A stretch of DNA of 64,000 nucleotides from positions 1-64,000 of the forward strand of contig JAJZUZ010000003.1 in NCBI GenBank assembly GCA_021845965.1, written 5' to 3'. Below the pieces are notes generated by a model. It saw only the letters and a list, made by a program, of their open reading frames with translations, was not told the origin of the DNA and ran no database searches. Positions 53,024 to 63,941 of the stretch are shown here, piece by piece. How positions within the stretch are numbered: the stretch's first letter is position 1; every line of letters starts with the position of its first letter. A program made the translations under genes and the position numbers. This stretch comes from Pseudomonadota bacterium. GTDB lineage: Bacteria > Pseudomonadota > Gammaproteobacteria > Burkholderiales > Burkholderiaceae_C.

Positions 53024-54838
53024 TCAGGGCCTGGCTGTCGTGGTCGGCGCGTCCGGCGCCTTGCCGTCGATGCGGATCACGCGGCGGCGGCTGGTGTCGA
53101 AGTCCTCCAGCGCGGCGCGCGCGCGTTCGGTCTGCTCTTCCCAGTCCTGCGCCGTGCGGATAATGGTGGGCTTGATCAGCACCACCAGTTCCTTCTTGCG
53201 CGCCGCATTGGCGCGGTTGCCGAACAGGAAGCCGACCGGATTGGAGGCCCCTGTGGTGCCGGGCACACCCGAGGCCGTCTGGCTGGACGCGAGCTGCATC
53301 AGGCCGCCGATGGCGGCGATGTTGCCGTCCTGCAGGCGCACCATGGTGTCGGTTTCGTTCACCGTGCTGGAAGCCAGTGGCAGCTTGTACAGGCCCACGC
53401 TGCCCAGGTCCACGTCCTTGGTCTTCTCGGTCACCGAGGTGACGGCCGGATGGATGTGCAGCATGATGCCGCTGGCGTCGTCGATCTGCGGCGTCACATC
53501 GAGCGCGATGCCGGAAAAGAAGGGCGTGAGCGTGAGCGTCGGCAGCGTCGTCGTGCCGGCCACGCCGACCACGCCGCTGTAGGTCGTGGTGCCGCCGGTG
53601 ACATTGGTGACGAAATAGTCATCCGAACCCACCTTGAGCACGGCCTTCTGGTTGTTGAGCGTCGCTACACGCGGGCTCGACAAGGTCTGCACATTGCCCT
53701 GAGTCTCCAGGAAGCCCAGCACGGCCGCGAACTGGTTGGTGGCCAGGGCCAGGCCGAACAGGCCGCCGCCGGCCGCAAAGGAAGGCGGCGGCACCACGCC
53801 GGCAATGGCCGTCCCCGACTGCACCACGCTGCTGCCATTGGCCACCGCACTGCCCAGCACGCCAATCGCGCCGGTGCCGTTGGCATCGGTGCCGAAGGCA
53901 CCCCAGTTGATCCCGCTCTGCTGGCCTTCGCGAAGTTCCACCTCCACGATCTTGGCCTCCAGCATCACCTGCCGCTCGATCGCGATCTGCGTGGCCTTGA
54001 GGAAGCGCTCCACCTGGCGCAGCTCATCGGGCATGGCACGCACGGCCATGATGCCGGCCTGCGGGCTGATGACCACGTTGCGCCCCTCGCCCTTGCCGAC
54101 CAGCCCGCGCACGGCGTCGGCCAGCTCAGCCCAGAAGTCGGAACTGGAGTTGGTGGACACCCGGCTGCTCTCGCGCTGCGTGGCCGCGGCGGCGGCAGAG
54201 CCCGTGGGGGCCGTCATCCCCGCCGTCGGCACACCGGCGGCGCCGGGCACACCGCCCACGCCGGGATTGAACGGCGCCGCACCGGACGAGACCCGCACCT
54301 CGCTGCGGCCGATGCGCTGCGTGTGCGGGTAGTTCAGCGTGAACATGCGCGTCTGCAGGGTCGGGGCATAGATGACGATGCGGCGTCCTTCCATGCGGAA
54401 GTCATAGCCATAGACGTCGCGGATCGACTCCAGCGCCTCCTTCACGGTCACGCCGCGCAGCGTCACCGAAATGGTACCGGTCACGTCCGGGTGCATAAGC
54501 ATGCTGTAGCGCGTGTCGGCCACCAGCGCGAGGAACACCTCGCGCGCGCTGGCGTTGTTGACCAGCAGGTCCAGCCGCGGTTCGGGGGGCGGAGTCACGG
54601 CCGGCGGGGCGGGCTCGGCCAGGGCTTCGATCACGCCGGCGGGCACCGCCCCCGGCGCGGACGCCGCCTTGGCGGGCGCAGGCGCCACCTCCGCGCGGAT
54701 GTCGGATTCGACGCCTTTGGCAAACTCGGTGCGCGTGGCGCAGGCGCTCAGCAGCCCCAGGCTGACGAAGATGCTCGCCAGCAGGGCCCCCCGCGTGAAT
54801 CGGGCCGGCGGCCGGGTCGTTGTGCTTGTGCTCGTCAT
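53024..54838 (-). CDS. mshL: MSHA pilus secretin MshL
   Basis: Lipoprotein signal (LGLLSACATRTEF); STN-like region; secretin domain (IERQVMLEAKIVEVELREGQQSGINWGAFG...VGSDDYFVTNVTGGTT...LVVLIKPTII). Confidence 0.93.
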   Translation of the reverse strand: MTSTSTTTRPPARFTRGALLASIFVSLGLLSACATRTEFAKGVESDIRAEVAPAPAKAASAPGAVPAGVIEALAEPAPPAVTPPPEPRLDLLVNNASAREVFLALVADTRYSMLMHPDVTGTISVTLRGVTVKEALESIRDVYGYDFRMEGRRIVIYAPTLQTRMFTLNYPHTQRIGRSEVRVSSGAAPFNPGVGGVPGAAGVPTAGMTAPTGSAAAAATQRESSRVSTNSSSDFWAELADAVRGLVGKGEGRNVVISPQAGIMAVRAMPDELRQVERFLKATQIAIERQVMLEAKIVEVELREGQQSGINWGAFGTDANGTGAIGVLGSAVANGSSVVQSGTAIAGVVPPPSFAAGGGLFGLALATNQFAAVLGFLETQGNVQTLSSPRVATLNNQKAVLKVGSDDYFVTNVTGGTTTYSGVVGVAGTTTLPTLTLTPFFSGIALDVTPQIDDASGIMLHIHPAVTSVTEKTKDVDLGSVGLYKLPLASSTVNETDTMVRLQDGNIAAIGGLMQLASSQTASGVPGTTGASNPVGFLFGNRANAARKKELVVLIKPTIIRTAQDWEEQTERARAALEDFDTSRRRVIRIDGKAPDAPTTTARP

Positions 54839-54861
54839 GGTACGACTCTCGTGCATGAAAC

Positions 54862-55206
54862 TCAGGGTTGGGCCGGCGGCAGGCTGTTGCGCCGCACGCC
54901 GGGAAAGAGCGGGACCTTGCGCAGCTCGCGGCCTTGGCGCAGCCAGACTTCGGTCTCGGTGATGCGCTCGATGCGGGCGCCGCCCAACAGCTGCCCTTCG
55001 GCGTACAGCCGCGTGCCCACCGCCACATGGGGCCGGCCGTCGACCACGATCACCGGCCAGCTGCCACGCGCCGCGGCCGGCCGCGCGGGCGCGCCACCGC
55101 CACCCAGCGGCGGCAGTGTCGGGTCGCGCAAGGCCTGGGCCTGCGCGGGCGCCAGCAGAACGGCCGCCAGGCAGCCGCCACCAACAAGCCAGCGGACCGC
55201 GCTCAT
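54862..55206 (-). CDS. mshK: MSHA biogenesis protein MshK-like
   Basis: Small secreted protein with LRDPTLPP motif, between mshJ and mshL. Confidence 0.75.
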   Translation of the reverse strand: MSAVRWLVGGGCLAAVLLAPAQAQALRDPTLPPLGGGGAPARPAAARGSWPVIVVDGRPHVAVGTRLYAEGQLLGGARIERITETEVWLRQGRELRKVPLFPGVRRNSLPPAQP

Positions 55207-55826
55207 GCGCCGCCTCCGACCAGCCAGACCTGCAGCGTCAACTCCGCCGGCTGGTTCAGGCTGTCCACCTTCATCGCGCCCCAGCGCAAGGCCGGCAAGG
55301 CGCGCTCCAGGGTCTGGACATAGCGGGTCAATTCCGCATAAGGCCCGGCGACGGTCAGTTCCAGTCCCTGGCGCCTGAGCTGCTTGTGCGTTGCCGCGGC
55401 CCCCTCGGCCCCGCGGCTCTCATCGGCCAGCGTCGCCGTGCGCACCAGCACCAGCCCCTCATGGCGGCGCAGGAAGTGCACCAGCACCTTGGTCAAGGGT
55501 ATCTCGCTCTGCCCCTGCGGCATGGCTTCAATCTCTGCGTTGACCGCCACCAGCCGCTCGCGCGCCTGGGCCAGCTCGACGCGCATCTGGCGCGTCGGCC
55601 CGGTCTCGCCACTGCTGTTCTTGAGCTCCTCGCCCAGGCGCTGCAATTCCGCCTGCTGTGCCGCCACGTGTTGCGTGATCTGTCGATGGCGGGTCTGCGC
55701 CGGCGCCAGCCAGAGCACATCGGCCAGCAGCATGCACAAGACCAGCAGCGTCGCGAACAGGAACACGCGCTCGCGCAGACTCAGCGCATCGATGCGCGTC
55801 GACAGCAGGGTCCACCAGCGCTTCAT
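55203..55826 (-). CDS. mshJ: MSHA biogenesis protein MshJ-like (PilO-like)
   Basis: N-terminal TM and coiled coil; position and overlaps with neighbours. Confidence 0.78.
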   Translation of the reverse strand: MKRWWTLLSTRIDALSLRERVFLFATLLVLCMLLADVLWLAPAQTRHRQITQHVAAQQAELQRLGEELKNSSGETGPTRQMRVELAQARERLVAVNAEIEAMPQGQSEIPLTKVLVHFLRRHEGLVLVRTATLADESRGAEGAAATHKQLRRQGLELTVAGPYAELTRYVQTLERALPALRWGAMKVDSLNQPAELTLQVWLVGGGA

Positions 55827-56494
55827 GGTTTGGCCCCCTCTCCTTCAGGTGCACGCGACGTCACCAGCGTGTAGGCCCACAGCGGCACGCCGCCCGCGCG
55901 CGCCAGCACCGCCGGGGGCGGCGCGCCCGCACCGCGCCCATCGGCCGACACCCGCTCCACCTTCACCGCGCTGAGCCGTTGCCCGGCCAGCAGGGGACTC
56001 TGCGCCAACCGGTCCATCCAGCCATTGAGCGCTGCGGGCTCCAGCGTGTAGCCACCAAGCTCCAGCCGCTGTTCGTCCGCGCGAAGGGTCGTGACCCAGG
56101 CCTGCGGCGCAATGGTACGCGCCACCAGCTCCAGCCGCGCCGCGTGGCCATGACCTTCGCGCAGCAGACCGTGCTTGAGTTCGGCCAGCAAGTCCTCGCG
56201 CTGCTGCAGCTCGTCGCGTGCGGCCTGCAATTCCTTCACCAGGGCCGCATCGGCGGGAGCCGCATTCTCCTTGTTCACCTTGATGGCAGCCTGCAGGCGC
56301 GCAATCTCGCGCTGGTTGGCCGTCGTGGCCTGCTCATAGCCGGCGCTGAGGCTCTGCAGCGTCCAGCTCCAGTAGGCCGACAGCCCACCGCCCAGCAACA
56401 CGAAGACGCCCAGCGCATGGGCCATCGTCTGCGCCGAGAAATAGCGCTTCGGCTTCAGGAAGATCGGGGTACACAGATTGATTTGCTGCGGCAT
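55823..56494 (-). CDS. PilN-like MSHA biogenesis protein (MshI2-like)
   Basis: QINLCTPIFLKPKRYFSAQTMAHALGVFVLLGGGLSAYW, TM and coiled coil. Confidence 0.75.
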   Translation of the reverse strand: MPQQINLCTPIFLKPKRYFSAQTMAHALGVFVLLGGGLSAYWSWTLQSLSAGYEQATTANQREIARLQAAIKVNKENAAPADAALVKELQAARDELQQREDLLAELKHGLLREGHGHAARLELVARTIAPQAWVTTLRADEQRLELGGYTLEPAALNGWMDRLAQSPLLAGQRLSAVKVERVSADGRGAGAPPPAVLARAGGVPLWAYTLVTSRAPEGEGAKP

Positions 56495-56509
56495 GGTGCG
56501 TCTTCCCGG

Positions 56510-57514
56510 TCAGAGCCTGCGGTCCTCGCTGCGCAGCAGCACACCCAGCAGCGGCCAGCACCGCTGGCGGTCCTCCTCGCTGCCGCCCTCGAAGCCCGGA
56601 AAGAGCGCCGACACATCCAGCGGCGTCACGGCCTGGCCGAGTTCCCGCCCCAGCCACTGCGCCATCTCCATCGTGCGGACGCCGGCCTGCACGGCAAGAC
56701 GATCCAGCACCAGCGTGGGCCAGGTGCGGTCCCACAGATCCAGGGAACGCTGGATCTCCACCACCAGGCGCTGGGCACGGTCCCCCTCGCCTCCCGGCGC
56801 GGCCAGCGACAGCTCCGACCCGCCGCCCCGCGCCCCTTCGTATCCCGTACCCCAGGCAGCCTGCATGAAACCCGGGCCCAGGTCGATGCGCCGCGTGTAG
56901 AAGAGTTCACCGTTGGCGCAGATGGTCAGCAGGGCCTGGCTGTCGCTCGTCATGACGACCGCCGCGTGGGCTCGTTCGCCTACGCCCGACTCGCGGGCAA
57001 GCGCGGACTGCAGATTGCGCTGCGCGAGATCGTGGATGTCGATGACGCCCACATTGCAGCGCAGAGCCTGTGCGGTCTCCATCACGGCGCGGATCTCGGC
57101 ATTGGGCGCAGCCACGACAAAGAGGCTGCCGCTGGGTCGCAGTTGCTCGTCACCCACCTTGAGCACGTCCAGCGTCAGGTCATCCACATGCTGGCTGACC
57201 ATCTCGCGGATCTGCCAGCGCGCCGCCGTGCGCAACTCTTCCGGCGGCACAGCCGGCGCCTCGATCTGCAGGATCTGGTACTGGGCCGGACGCAGCATGG
57301 CTTGCGCCGCCAGGCCCTTGAATCCCAGGCCGCCCAGCCGCCGGGCAAACGCCTCCGGCGCGTCCTCGCCGCGGCGCTCCACACCGAAGCGTTGCACGTG
57401 CATGCGGCCATGCGCTTCGCGCCGCGCCTGCACGTAGGCCAGCGCGGCGCCATCCCAGGCGACGACCAGGCCGTGGCGCTGCGCTGCGCGTCGTCCGGAC
57501 CAGGGAAGCTTCAC
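56510..57514 (-). CDS. mshI: MSHA biogenesis protein MshI-like (PilM-like actin fold)
   Basis: GLVVAWDGAALAYVQARREAHG...; EIRAVMETAQALRCNVGVIDIHDLAQRNL; position. Confidence 0.78.
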   Translation of the reverse strand: MKLPWSGRRAAQRHGLVVAWDGAALAYVQARREAHGRMHVQRFGVERRGEDAPEAFARRLGGLGFKGLAAQAMLRPAQYQILQIEAPAVPPEELRTAARWQIREMVSQHVDDLTLDVLKVGDEQLRPSGSLFVVAAPNAEIRAVMETAQALRCNVGVIDIHDLAQRNLQSALARESGVGERAHAAVVMTSDSQALLTICANGELFYTRRIDLGPGFMQAAWGTGYEGARGGGSELSLAAPGGEGDRAQRLVVEIQRSLDLWDRTWPTLVLDRLAVQAGVRTMEMAQWLGRELGQAVTPLDVSALFPGFEGGSEEDRQRCWPLLGVLLRSEDRRL

Positions 57515-57718: not shown

Positions 57719-60700
57719 TCAGTAGTTCTCGCGCATGTAGATCAACGGCGCCTTGTAGAGGCCGAACGCTGCCCGCGCGCCCAGATTCGGCCCAAACCAC
57801 GGCACGTTACCCCCCACGGCATTGGCTTCGCTGGCACTGAGACAGGTCTTGCCGGCGGCCGTAGCGCCCTCATTGACCGAGAGGTCCACGCTGCCGGAGT
57901 TCCCCGCACCCGGCCGGCTCAGGGTCAGCGAGCTCAGCCCGCCAGCGAAAAGCAGAGTCGTGGCCGGAGATATGCGTGTCTCACAGGCGTTCAGATTGCC
58001 CAGATAGTTGCCCATGGCGATGCTGCCGGCCGGCAGGGCCGTGCAACTGTCCAGCGTATTGGTCGCGAAATAGGCGCCCTGCCAGTACTGCGCCGACAGG
58101 CCCAGCGGCAGCGCCAGCAGCTCGGAGCCATAGGCGTTCTGCAGGCGCAGGCGCCCGTAGCGGATTCGGGTCGTACCGGTCTCCTGCTCGGCGGCAGTCC
58201 CGATCAGCGTGGCACCGTCCGTATCATTCACGGCCGCCTTGAGCTTGAACTGATCGTAGGGACCATCGGGCGCCGCCAGCTTCGTGAACGCGTAGGTCTC
58301 GTTGAGCTGGAACACCCCGGCCGACCAGAGCGCGGTGCTCGGCATGCTCGGAAAGGCCGGGCTGGCAAGCCGGTTGACATCGACCGCGGCGCCGTTGTTG
58401 TCGCCGCTGATCGTGACGCCGGCCAGGTTGGTGTAGCCGCTGGTGTAGCGGCTCACCACCGGGTCGCTGGCGGATGGCGCGGCGCCGGTGCTGGCATGCG
58501 CCTTCACCGTCAACGCCACCCCCAGCGCGTCCTGGTCCATGTAGGTGAACCCGCCCGCGCTGCAGCCGGCCGTGAGCGCGCCGCTGAACGAGTAATGGCT
58601 CGGCACCCAGCGCCCGAACCTGCCCGTCGCCGCGCTGCCGATGTTGCAGCCGTAACGCCCCGTACTCAGCGTATTCGAGGTGCTGCCGCTGGTGCAGTCA
58701 CCCATGGCCTGGTCGACCAAGGTGAACTTGTCGTCGACCACCGCATCGGTGCTGAACTGGAGGTTGCCGACATCGAGGTACCTGAACGCACTGCCGCTGG
58801 CCTTGGCGCCGTCGCCATTGCCAAAGGTGCCAGAGAGGGTGCCCGAGGCGATGGCCGCGCCGTTGTGATCAAGGGCCTTGGCCGCATTGAGCACCGGTGC
58901 CGTACCGCTGTAGCCGCTGGCGACATTGGCATCGGCATCCAGCGCAAAGCTGCTGCCCGCCACCGCCTTGGGTGTGCCGGTCAGCCCCGTGTTGGTCAAC
59001 ACCGGCGCCGACACGGTGAACTGCTGCGGACGGATGGCAAAGTTGTCGGTGGAACAGGCTGCCGCCGAGGTACCCGCCTTCATGCGGACCCGGACATTCG
59101 GTGCCGCGTTGGCGTAATTGAACGTCACCTGCTTGCGCCCCTGGTCGGTACTCGCAAATGTCACGGAGGTCGCCGACGTCAGGCCGCTGCCGGAGGGGCA
59201 GGTCGACGCCGAACTGTCCACCAGGTCCACCGCCACCGTGCCGGTATAGGTCGTGTTCACCGTGCTGGCACCACTCAGCGCCAGCACGTCTACATTGAAG
59301 GCGGTGCCGGACAGCTTGGTGTACAGGCGTGACTTCGGGCTGCCACCCACCTCCGCCGCATCGAAGTTGCACGAAGCACTCGCAAAGCTCATGGTGCAAG
59401 ACTCGGTCGAACCGATGAAGCAGCGTGTGCCCGCCGCCGGTATGGGTGACGTGCTCACGGTCCCCAGCGTCACATCCCCGGCGGTGCCCACGCTCAGTTG
59501 CCGCGTGGTCACGCCGCCGGAGAAGGAAAACGTGTCGCCGCCTGCCCAGCCTGTGGGCGACAGGCGCACGGTCACCGCGCCCGTGTACAGCGTCGAGCAG
59601 CTGGCATTGAGGCAGGCCTTGACCGTCACCGTCTCCGGGGTGCAGACCGATGCCGAGCCGTCATGCTCGATCTGGATATGGTCATAGGTACCGGAGCAGG
59701 AGCGGCCCAGCGTCATGTCGGCCTGCACCTCCGCTGCGCTGAGTTCATAGCTGTAGAGCTTGACCTCATCGATCATGCCGCGGAAGTTGCGCGCCGGGAG
59801 CAGGCTGCAGGCGGCGCCCGTGGAGATGTCGCCGCCGATGTAGAAATTGCAGTTGTTCGCCTGCAGGGTACCCTTCCAGTTGTTGGTGTTCGCGTCCTGC
59901 ACGCCGTTGATATAGATGCGCTGCCGCCCGGTCGTCGAATCAAAGGTGATCGCCACATGGGTCCACTGGTTCAGGGGAATGGTGGCGGCCGACGTCAGGG
60001 TCGAGCTGTTCCACCACCAATACAGCTTGCCTTGCGGATTCAGGTGGAACTCGTAGTTCACGTCGTTCGACAGGATCGAATACAGATCACTCGTCGGATA
60101 GGCGGTCGGATAGATCCAGGCCGAGGCGGACAGCTTGGTCGTGTAGTCGAACAGAGGGCTGTCGGCCACCTGCACCACGGCCTTGCCGTCGAAGCTCGCC
60201 GCGTTGCAAAAACCGCCGACGACGGAGGCATGCTGGGACGCTATGGTTGGATTCGGTGCCACGGTGTTGGTGGTTGTCGGCGTCGTCGTGGTCAGGCGTG
60301 TGCCGTTGAGCCCGGTGGTACCGCTGTCGAGCACCTCGCCCGTCGCGCCGGTCCACGAACCCACCGGCTCGTCCAGCCGGAAATGCGTCACGGCACTGGG
60401 CAGCACCAGCACGGACGCGCTGGCCGTGCCGAAGCCGGTCGCCGTCACGGTGTTGGTCAGCACGCCCTGCTGAGTCAGCGATACCGCCAGCGTCAGCGTG
60501 GCACTGCCGTTGCCCGGCAGCGAGGGGATGGTCCACGTGACCTGCTGTCCGGACACCGCCACGCTGCCCAGCGTCGGCGCGGACGCGGAGTAGCTCATCC
60601 CCGCCGGAAGCGTGTCCACGACACTGACGTTGGCGCGGGCCGTGGCATCCGGATTGCTGACGCTGATCGTGAACGTCATCACGTCCCCGAGCAGCGCCGA

Positions 60701-61768
60701 AGAGGCACTGGCCGTCTTGCTGAGCAAGGAAAGCGTCGTGAAGGTCTGGTCGGCCCCGTAGACCGTGCCGGCGCTGCTGCTGGCCTTGACGCGGAAATGG
60801 TAGGTCGTTGCGGCGGTCAGTCCCGAAACCGCGGAATTCACGGTCACACTGGATGTCCCGGCGGGCACGGAGGCGGGTGTCGCCGCCAGCGTGCCGCCAT
60901 AGCTCGTGGTGGTGCCGTACTCGAAGCTGACGGTGGCCGCCGCGTCATTGGCGACCACGGCACCATTGAGCGTTGCGGTTGTCGTGGCGATTGCGGTCGC
61001 GGCGTTCGTTGTTGCGGTCGGTGGCACTGGCGCGTCGGGATAGGTGATGACAAGACGGCCAGGACCACCCGCTCCACCTGCTTGGTCGTTATTGTTCTCG
61101 GCGCAGGCACCGCCGCCGCCACCACCGGCCGCCAAACCCGGGTTGCCCGCACTGCGGGAGTTGGTACCAGCCCCACCGTTGCCACCATTGTTGGCAGTGC
61201 CCGTGCCGGCCACGTTGCCGGTGGCGCTGCCACCGGCACCGGAGCTTCCGGCACCACCGCCGCCGGCTCCGCCGTTGTTGCAGTTCCCGCCGACGGCACC
61301 GGCCGATCCGCTGCCGCCGGCGTAGACCACGTCCCCCACGCCGTTGGCTGCCGACCCCGCACCCGCGGCCCCGGCCGCTGCACCCACACGCCCCCCCGCT
61401 CCACCCTTGGCGACGACCACGCTTGCGCCAAAAATCGTGTCGCCCCCAGCGGTACCGTTGCCGTTGGATCCTGTGCCGCCCGCGCCGACCGTCACCGAGA
61501 CAGTGCTGCCCGCCGTCAGACCAGTGACGACCTTGCGAGCGTACTGCCCGCCCGCTCCCCCCCCCCCTTTGCCGGGGTTGGAAGTCGCGCCGCCCCCCGC
61601 TCCGCCGCCGCCCCAGGACTCCACCGTCACTGCTGTGGTCGACGTAATCCAGGCCGGGACCGTCCACGTGTACGTACCGGGAGTCGTGTAGGAATCGCTA
61701 GCCCCGTAAACCAGCGTGGCCGAGAGCGCCAGCGAGGCAGCAAGGATACGGCGCTTGAGTTGCAGCAT
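57719..61768 (-). CDS. mshQ: MSHA biogenesis protein MshQ-like, large mosaic secreted protein (Gly-rich, Fn3-like, DUF11-like, LamG-like, DUF6701-like C-terminus)
   Basis: 1349 aa; signal peptide; LamG-like ASAWIYPTAYPTSDLYSILSND...QWTHVAITFDSTTGRQRIYINGV...FRGMIDEVKLYSYELSAAEVQ; MshQ-type C-terminus; located after mshP. Confidence 0.87.
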   Translation of the reverse strand: MLQLKRRILAASLALSATLVYGASDSYTTPGTYTWTVPAWITSTTAVTVESWGGGGAGGGATSNPGKGGGGAGGQYARKVVTGLTAGSTVSVTVGAGGTGSNGNGTAGGDTIFGASVVVAKGGAGGRVGAAAGAAGAGSAANGVGDVVYAGGSGSAGAVGGNCNNGGAGGGGAGSSGAGGSATGNVAGTGTANNGGNGGAGTNSRSAGNPGLAAGGGGGGACAENNNDQAGGAGGPGRLVITYPDAPVPPTATTNAATAIATTTATLNGAVVANDAAATVSFEYGTTTSYGGTLAATPASVPAGTSSVTVNSAVSGLTAATTYHFRVKASSSAGTVYGADQTFTTLSLLSKTASASSALLGDVMTFTISVSNPDATARANVSVVDTLPAGMSYSASAPTLGSVAVSGQQVTWTIPSLPGNGSATLTLAVSLTQQGVLTNTVTATGFGTASASVLVLPSAVTHFRLDEPVGSWTGATGEVLDSGTTGLNGTRLTTTTPTTTNTVAPNPTIASQHASVVGGFCNAASFDGKAVVQVADSPLFDYTTKLSASAWIYPTAYPTSDLYSILSNDVNYEFHLNPQGKLYWWWNSSTLTSAATIPLNQWTHVAITFDSTTGRQRIYINGVQDANTNNWKGTLQANNCNFYIGGDISTGAACSLLPARNFRGMIDEVKLYSYELSAAEVQADMTLGRSCSGTYDHIQIEHDGSASVCTPETVTVKACLNASCSTLYTGAVTVRLSPTGWAGGDTFSFSGGVTTRQLSVGTAGDVTLGTVSTSPIPAAGTRCFIGSTESCTMSFASASCNFDAAEVGGSPKSRLYTKLSGTAFNVDVLALSGASTVNTTYTGTVAVDLVDSSASTCPSGSGLTSATSVTFASTDQGRKQVTFNYANAAPNVRVRMKAGTSAAACSTDNFAIRPQQFTVSAPVLTNTGLTGTPKAVAGSSFALDADANVASGYSGTAPVLNAAKALDHNGAAIASGTLSGTFGNGDGAKASGSAFRYLDVGNLQFSTDAVVDDKFTLVDQAMGDCTSGSTSNTLSTGRYGCNIGSAATGRFGRWVPSHYSFSGALTAGCSAGGFTYMDQDALGVALTVKAHASTGAAPSASDPVVSRYTSGYTNLAGVTISGDNNGAAVDVNRLASPAFPSMPSTALWSAGVFQLNETYAFTKLAAPDGPYDQFKLKAAVNDTDGATLIGTAAEQETGTTRIRYGRLRLQNAYGSELLALPLGLSAQYWQGAYFATNTLDSCTALPAGSIAMGNYLGNLNACETRISPATTLLFAGGLSSLTLSRPGAGNSGSVDLSVNEGATAAGKTCLSASEANAVGGNVPWFGPNLGARAAFGLYKAPLIYMRENY

Positions 61769-61770
61769 GA

Positions 61771-62199
61771 TCAACGCTCCAAGGTGGCCGTGAGACTGCG
61801 CTCGACGAAACCGGGATTGCCGGGCGCCCCCACCGTCTGGGCCACTGCCGTGAATTGGAACACCCGCCGGTCCGTGCCGGCCTCGTTGTACGTGGCCGGG
61901 GCACAGGTCACCGCCACAGTGAAGCCGCCATCAAAGCTGGCCGAGCCGCCCGGCAGCGTCGTCGGCGAGGCCGGGCACGTGGCCGTCGCAGCCGGCTGGG
62001 CCGCAATGCTACCGATACCCCAGGCCAAGCCGGCTCGCGCCGCCCAATAGGCGCGCGAGCCCTGGATGTCGGCCGCCGAGTTGAGCTGCTGGGTGTTGGA
62101 GAAGGTCAGCATGAAGGCCCCCAGGGCCGCGAGCACCACCAGCAGGAAGATGGCCGCCATGGCGGCGAAACCGGCGTGTGAGCGGGCGATCGACTTCAT
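61771..62199 (-). CDS. mshP: MSHA biogenesis protein MshP-like
   Basis: GFAAMAAIFLLVVLAALGAFMLTFSNTQQLNSAADIQGSRAYWAARAGLAWG. Confidence 0.88.
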   Translation of the reverse strand: MKSIARSHAGFAAMAAIFLLVVLAALGAFMLTFSNTQQLNSAADIQGSRAYWAARAGLAWGIGSIAAQPAATATCPASPTTLPGGSASFDGGFTVAVTCAPATYNEAGTDRRVFQFTAVAQTVGAPGNPGFVERSLTATLER

Positions 62200-63011
62200 G
62201 GCGTGTTGTTGACGTTGATCTCGTGATACAGGCTCACGGTTTCGCCGCCCTGGCTGATGGCCAGCTCGATCTGCACCAGGCCGTTGCGCTGCAGATCCGA
62301 ACCGTTGTAGATGAATTTGCAGGTCACACCGCTGGCCATCAGGCTGCCGCCGGTCGCGGGACAGGATGACGCATAGGCATAGTTGCTGTTGCGGTAGAGA
62401 TTTCCGCCGGTGCAGACGTAGGAAACAATCGCCTCGTTGCCGGGAATCACCTGGAAGCGGTTGTTCGGTGACGCAAAGGGAAACTTCTTCCCGTTGATGC
62501 GGATCTTGGTCTCGCCCGCCAGCGATCCGGTCTGCACGACCGTCACCCGGGAGGTGTTATCGCCCGCATAGGCGTCCGCCCCGGGGATGCCCAGGTTGTA
62601 GACCGCGATCAGGTCATCCTTGACGATCTGCTGGTCAGCCAGCGCGCTGTTGGCGCCGAACATGTCGAAGCTGTTGTCGGACTTGGAAAAGTCGAGAAAA
62701 TCGCCGTTGCCGCTGGCATCGACATCGGCCCGATAGCGCCCGCCGGTCTTGGTCGGAATGAACTCGATGCACTGGTTGTTGGCCTGCCGCAGGCTGTTGG
62801 GCAGGGCCTTGCGGATGTCGCGCGACATGCGCCGCACCACCGTGTCCGCGGCATCGGACAAGGCCGCGCGCCGCGCCGTGTCGAAGTAGGCATCGATCGG
62901 CTTGCGCATGAACACCGCCACCATGGCGCCGACGATGCCCAGGATCACGATCACCATGATCAGCTCGATCAGGGTAAAGCCGTGTTGCAGGCGGGACGGC
63001 CGGTTCATCAT
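62196..63011 (-). CDS. mshO: MSHA pilin-like protein MshO
   Basis: Prepilin motif HGFTLIELIMVIVILGIVGAMVAVFMRKPIDAYFDTARRAALSDAADTVVRRMSRDIRKALPNSLR. Confidence 0.91.
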   Translation of the reverse strand: MMNRPSRLQHGFTLIELIMVIVILGIVGAMVAVFMRKPIDAYFDTARRAALSDAADTVVRRMSRDIRKALPNSLRQANNQCIEFIPTKTGGRYRADVDASGNGDFLDFSKSDNSFDMFGANSALADQQIVKDDLIAVYNLGIPGADAYAGDNTSRVTVVQTGSLAGETKIRINGKKFPFASPNNRFQVIPGNEAIVSYVCTGGNLYRNSNYAYASSCPATGGSLMASGVTCKFIYNGSDLQRNGLVQIELAISQGGETVSLYHEINVNNTP

Positions 63012-63472
63012 GTCGGATCCTGCGTCCGGAAACCGGTCAGGGTGATGGTTTCATTGCCGCGGTTTACCGTCACGTTGACGCGTTTGGCCGCCACCGTGCC
63101 CAGGGTGGTCGCCGCGACCTGGATCTGGACCGTATAGCCATAGATGCCCGCCGGCATGCCGGTAAACATCGGGCCGGCGACAGACAACGTCTCGTTGATG
63201 CCGTTGTAGTCCTCCACGTCATCGTAGAGCGTCCTGTCGGCCTCGACCACATTGGGCAGGCCATCAGGGTCGTCGTAGGCCTTGAGCAGGACTTCCTCCA
63301 GCAAGGAATCGGCCAGCGCCATGGCCTGCTTGCGCACCATGGGGTCGGCGCTGGATCGCACGGACACGTCCATCACCATCAGGATGCCGGCGACGCCCAC
63401 CGACACCACGACGATGAAGACGATCAGCTCCAGCAGCGTGAAGCCGGCCTGGTCGCGCCTAGTCGTGCACAT
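63008..63472 (-). CDS. mshD: MSHA pilin-like protein MshD
   Basis: Prepilin motif AGFTLLELIVFIVVVSVGVAGILMVMDVSVRSSADPMVRKQAMALADSLLEEVLLKAY. Confidence 0.91.
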   Translation of the reverse strand: MCTTRRDQAGFTLLELIVFIVVVSVGVAGILMVMDVSVRSSADPMVRKQAMALADSLLEEVLLKAYDDPDGLPNVVEADRTLYDDVEDYNGINETLSVAGPMFTGMPAGIYGYTVQIQVAATTLGTVAAKRVNVTVNRGNETITLTGFRTQDPT

Positions 63473-63941
63473 AACCGGTATCCGCTTCAACGGTGATGAC
63501 CGGGCCGGCAGCCACGCCGCCCTGCGTCACTTGCAGGGCCAGGGCCTGGCTGGGCTGGCCCAGCGCGCTGAACCAGAAGGCGCTGGCCGGCACGGTCTGG
63601 TAGGCGACGTCGGCAGGGGCTGTGACCTGCGCCGGCGTTTCACCCTTGGGGCCGGTCAGATTGCCGTCGCAGTTGTTGGAGGCCGGCGCGGTGGCGATGC
63701 TCAGGGTGGCCGAACCGCCGGCAAAGGCGACGCAGACCGTGCGTCGCTGCGCGATGGCCGACTTCTGCGCATAACGCAAAAGCGCGAGAGTTTCATCGTG
63801 GAAACCTCGCGCGTCGAAGTCCTTGGTGTTCAATTGGGGAATCAGAAATGCCGCCATCACCCCCAACAGAACCATCACCGTGATCAACTCGATCAAAGTG
63901 AAACCGCGGACTCCCATAGGTGAACGGATCGTGGAATCCAT
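63459..63941 (-). CDS. mshC: MSHA pilin-like protein MshC
   Basis: Prepilin motif RGFTLIELITVMVLLGVMAAFLIPQLNTKDFDARGFHDETLALLRYAQKSAIAQRRTVCV. Confidence 0.9.
   Translation of the reverse strand: MDSTIRSPMGVRGFTLIELITVMVLLGVMAAFLIPQLNTKDFDARGFHDETLALLRYAQKSAIAQRRTVCVAFAGGSATLSIATAPASNNCDGNLTGPKGETPAQVTAPADVAYQTVPASAFWFSALGQPSQALALQVTQGGVAAGPVITVEADTGYVHD

Follow-up and report, generated by a model that had tools for sequence, protein, structure and literature searches.

Near the 5′ end of an mshQ-like gene, the window (the whole stretch of 64,000 nt analysed here) carries a run of 11 G residues (G11), and the question raised by this locus is whether the run is a phase-variation switch of a pilus adhesin, as the initial annotation had proposed, or a product of the composition of the gene. 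Coordinates of the features are listed in Table 1. The predicted protein possessed an N-terminal Gly_rich_2 domain (residues 30-245 in 1351-aa numbering), followed by DUF11, Laminin_G_3, and a C-terminal DUF6701, and its gene followed the last of the minor pilin genes. Prepilin genes were present upstream and MshI/J-like and MshL-like genes downstream, and the contig past the window edge contained MshG-like and MshE-like genes; judged by this gene order, the locus is of the MSHA pilus type, with the gene at the place expected for mshQ. Both the MshQ-like identity and the MSHA setting assigned earlier were thus borne out by DUF6701 and the neighbouring MSHA-type genes. The MshL-like secretin scored 226.7, slightly below the curated cut-off of 250.2; the MshP-like gene, whose stop codon lies 2 bases ahead of the mshQ ATG, gave no match in the family search and was named by position only. 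The nearest named relatives of the MshQ protein were from Rhodoferax MAGs and R. bucti, which makes a Burkholderiales bacterium the probable source.

Table 1. Features of the mshQ region, with positions numbered along the window
Feature	Position	Strand	Remarks
mshQ-like gene	57719..61768	minus	1349 codons from ATG
G11 homopolymer	61557..61567	minus	codons 68-71 of mshQ, K-G-G-G-G-A
Gly_rich_2 (PF21722) module holding G11	61040..61687	minus	E = 2.5e-16
DUF6701 domain, found in MshQ proteins	57728..59428	minus	E = 3.5e-52, residues 783-1349
TGA stop after -1 slip	61516..61518	minus	product 83 aa
Stop codon after +1 slip	61089..61091	minus	product 226 aa
MshP-like small gene	61771..62199	minus	directly upstream of mshQ
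Three prepilin-like genes (MshO, MshD, MshC positions)	62196..63941	minus	N-methylation motifs
MshL-like secretin, one unassigned ORF, PilN-like MshJ, PilM-like MshI	53027..57514	minus	downstream of mshQ

On the plus strand the tract reads as C11, and in the mshQ sense as AAA GGG GGG GGG GGA GCG, beginning at codon 68 of the 1349 counted from the ATG at 61768. It was, as first described, an uninterrupted run of 11 G early in the gene and unequalled in length by any coding homopolymer in the window, where the runner-up G/C runs had 7 residues and the longest A/T run 8. In the draft genome (2,995,228 bases in 281 contigs, 83% complete), only five G/C runs of at least 9 were found (11, 10, 10, 9, and 9), G11 being the longest, and the remaining four look intergenic or located at gene edges. 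A poly-G/C phase-variable locus is expected to carry at least 9 G/C residues in a row, either inside a reading frame or a short way ahead of it, the length threshold being that of phasome surveys (PMC5953494); G11, at codons 68-71, exceeds it. An error of assembly or sequencing is a very unlikely origin of the length of 11. Errors are known to occur in poly-G, and the source is a fragmented, incomplete draft; with 11 residues, however, the frame runs uninterrupted through 1349 codons and connects the signal peptide and Gly-rich module with the conserved domains further downstream.

Other G/C runs were observed outside mshQ. A C10 (L025 7852-7861, G000:C26) lies some 100 bases ahead of an ORF that begins like a signal peptide (MTHRPSVWLFALL...); this ORF might encode an outer-membrane protein, and the C10 is a possible promoter-type tract. 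On the coding strand, a run of nine C (L027 6564-6572, G000:C133) is located at the start of an NrdA-like ribonucleotide reductase gene or immediately ahead of it, and is coding or not according to where that gene truly begins. A genome of the same genus, assembled in 4 contigs, contained a 39-base G run (G007:C1:46127-46165) and several runs of at least 15, far more than in most relatives, and this wealth is either an artefact or the mark of a poly-G-rich genome.

The consequences of slippage were computed from the sequence. Single-base changes would switch the full-length product off, leaving 83 aa (-1) or 226 aa (+1) instead of 1349, that is, 6% or 17% of MshQ, in agreement with the earlier estimate of about a fifth or less; slips of -2 and +2 gave 225 and 84 aa, respectively, while changes of 3 bases in either direction kept mshQ in frame. 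DUF11, Laminin_G_3, and DUF6701 were absent from every frameshift product. In Vibrio cholerae, loss of mshQ significantly reduces surface MSHA, although retraction persists (PMC7096442), so that an MshQ OFF state would plausibly matter here as well.

Related systems are known. In Neisseria, the pilus-associated protein PilC varies in phase through poly-G tracts of G9-20 (PMC5953494). The present tract resembles those of pilC1/pilC2 in that a run of at least 9 G lies inside the coding sequence of a protein associated with type IV pili and changes of one base shift the frame; in contrast, pilC tracts differ in length from isolate to isolate and have been documented to switch (PMC5953494), whereas one sequence is at hand here, and PilC and MshQ (DUF6701) belong to different protein families. 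Another case is V. cholerae, in which an 8C tract of mshQ was among the mutable coding repeats of mutation-accumulation lines, the mutable clusters being found particularly in the mutS-deficient (mismatch-repair-deficient) background (PMC5854121). Like G11, it is a homopolymer within mshQ of an MSHA locus, but it is an 8C in another organism, with clusters particularly in mismatch-repair-deficient lines. That report was the only one retrieved for MshQ and phase variation in the full text of open-licence papers, and because it describes the V. cholerae tract as mutable, homopolymer slippage in mshQ is an already known idea. By analogy, G11 could be a selected contingency locus at which reversible slipped-strand mispairing toggles MshQ, and hence pilus level or adhesion, as in Neisseria pilC. 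Its length of at least 9, its place towards the 5′ end of a gene for a pilus adhesin, the truncations computed above, and the precedents of pilC and the V. cholerae 8C speak for this reading, as does a G11 in a second MshQ of the same family (see below); it is nevertheless rather unlikely, in view of the comparisons that follow.

The nearest available relative with an MshQ of the same domain order (Gly_rich_2, DUF11, Laminin_G_3, DUF6701) was L030, a Rhodoferax MAG, with 881 of 1335 aligned residues identical (66%); for the N-terminal part the figure was 119 of 257. Unlike the mshQ of the window, that of L030 has no G11; its homologous site reads GGC GGC GGC GGT GGC, and an unrelated G9 occurs at another place in its Gly-rich module. 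That a close relative might use mixed Gly codons had been named beforehand as an observation that would tell against a switch, and such codons were indeed seen, in a relative only 66% identical. The lack of a tract at this site argues against a contingency locus, although a lineage-specific switch would still be compatible with a comparison in which L030 is too distant to decide. No second strain of the same species was found in the genome collections searched, and searching the genus with the Gly_rich_2 profile gave no further MshQ with the module, a result of little weight because the window's own copy was missed as well. Homopolymers can provoke slippage in transcription, and on this general knowledge G11 could act at the RNA level, through polymerase slippage or ribosomal frameshifting, to give a fixed mixture of full-length and truncated MshQ with the DNA unchanged. 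Such a role is most improbable, since the shifted frames yield truncated products only and the tract is not conserved in L030.

A survey of 114 MshQ-type ORFs (427 kb), made up of 49 from nearer relatives, 45 class-wide, and 20 from the family, included two (L121 and L199, among the 65 added ORFs) that lacked BLAST confirmation as MshQ-like. Among the 49 from nearer relatives, G runs of at least 9 occurred in four (the G11 of the window, L070 with 11, L030 with 9, and L091 with 9), compared with 1.0 expected from codon shuffles. This excess was not repeated in the two further samples, as no G run of at least 9 was present in the independent class-wide 45 (about 1.2 expected) or in the 20 of the family (about 0.3 expected). 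Over all 114 ORFs, four runs were observed versus about 2.4 expected (Poisson P about 0.23). L030 did not retain the tract at its corresponding site, nor were long tracts common in the 114 ORFs, and good evidence for an accumulation of poly-G tracts in mshQ genes generally is lacking, which again counts against a contingency locus. A broader proposal would be that the MSHA pili of this Burkholderiales lineage are phase-variable through poly-G in a lineage-specific Gly-rich MshQ module, long G tracts having arisen repeatedly at different mshQ places in related genera, namely the four just listed; we regard it as decidedly unlikely.

In L070 (G031:C7:297300-304000), a same-family MshQ, the G11 is at codon 1262 of 1886 (CTG GGG GGG GGG GCA), outside any Gly-rich module and near the start of a DUF6701-like region. 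A decayed MshQ-like gene, L201 (G214:C48:21500-26500), had several frames broken; a homopolymer was considered as the cause and rejected, there being none at the break examined and the decay extending over several frames.

How often a run of this length would arise by chance was estimated in two ways. Within the Gly-rich module, a run of at least 11 appeared in 2.9% of trials when synonymous codons were shuffled, in 1.1% when codons were sampled from the usage of other window genes, and in 3.8% when sampled from that of mshQ itself. For the draft genome, 142 overlapping 7-mers of G corresponded to some 80 runs with 7 residues and 21 with 8, as estimated from the first 100 places listed, and the G/C run counts dropped geometrically with length. 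The fall-off from runs of 7-8 predicts about 7.8 runs of at least 9, versus 5 seen, and about 0.6 of at least 11, versus 1 seen, with a 43% chance of one or more. Thus, with shuffle frequencies of 1-4% and about 0.6 runs expected genome-wide, G11 is mildly unusual for mshQ and ordinary for its genome. A compositional probability that is not very small, together with the paucity of long G tracts in the draft genome, also weighs against a contingency locus.

Taken together, G11 is probably in the main a compositional by-product of a Gly-rich stretch and a likely frameshift hotspot that yields occasional MshQ-off cells. The Gly-rich module follows the MshQ signal peptide, and in one of its Gly-Gly-Gly-Gly stretches three GGG codons and a GGA would have come into line by chance. 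From its length and by precedent, the tract would be slip-prone in replication, as are other G tracts of such length, and would therefore act as a frameshift hotspot, which may give rise to sporadic cells devoid of full-length MshQ. Support for a compositional origin comes from the position of G11 within the PF21722 module and from the protein-preserving shuffles, as well as from the run counts of the genome, the mixed codons of L030, and the survey of MshQ-type ORFs. Against it count the rank of G11 as the longest G/C run of the genome, with the other four runs of at least 9 apparently intergenic or at gene edges; its location near the beginning of a surface-adhesin gene, which is typical of contingency loci; and the nearer-relative sample, with 4 runs of at least 9 versus 1.0 expected, among them the L070 tract outside any Gly-rich module. 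No sign was seen that selection built or maintains G11 as a switch. The case for an evolved phase-variation switch is weak, and the initial proposal of one found no support in the mixed Gly codons of L030, the lack of a clear G-tract excess in MshQ, and the Gly-rich setting.

The module itself was modelled with AlphaFold (N-terminal 345 residues). The Gly-rich part was of low confidence (mean pLDDT 57), and in the model the G11-encoded stretch falls after a predicted strand at 47-52 and before a second at 76-81. The module (window 61040-61687) also matched PHROG 863, a profile of phage tail proteins (E = 1.8e-12), and PHROG 8139, a phage family of unknown function (E = 1.5e-12); pilus and phage adhesins may share a Gly-rich module, and the scores may be inflated by the low complexity of Gly-rich sequence. 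The flank of G11 had no copy among the viral contigs searched.

As the evidence stands, the finding counsels caution, because Gly-rich modules in high-GC genomes yield long G runs by composition and a switch cannot be recognised by the length of a tract alone. If G11 does switch, poly-G phase variation of pilus adhesins, known from host-adapted pathogens, would be extended to an MSHA pilus that is probably environmental, and the tract would provide a handle on heterogeneity in attachment.
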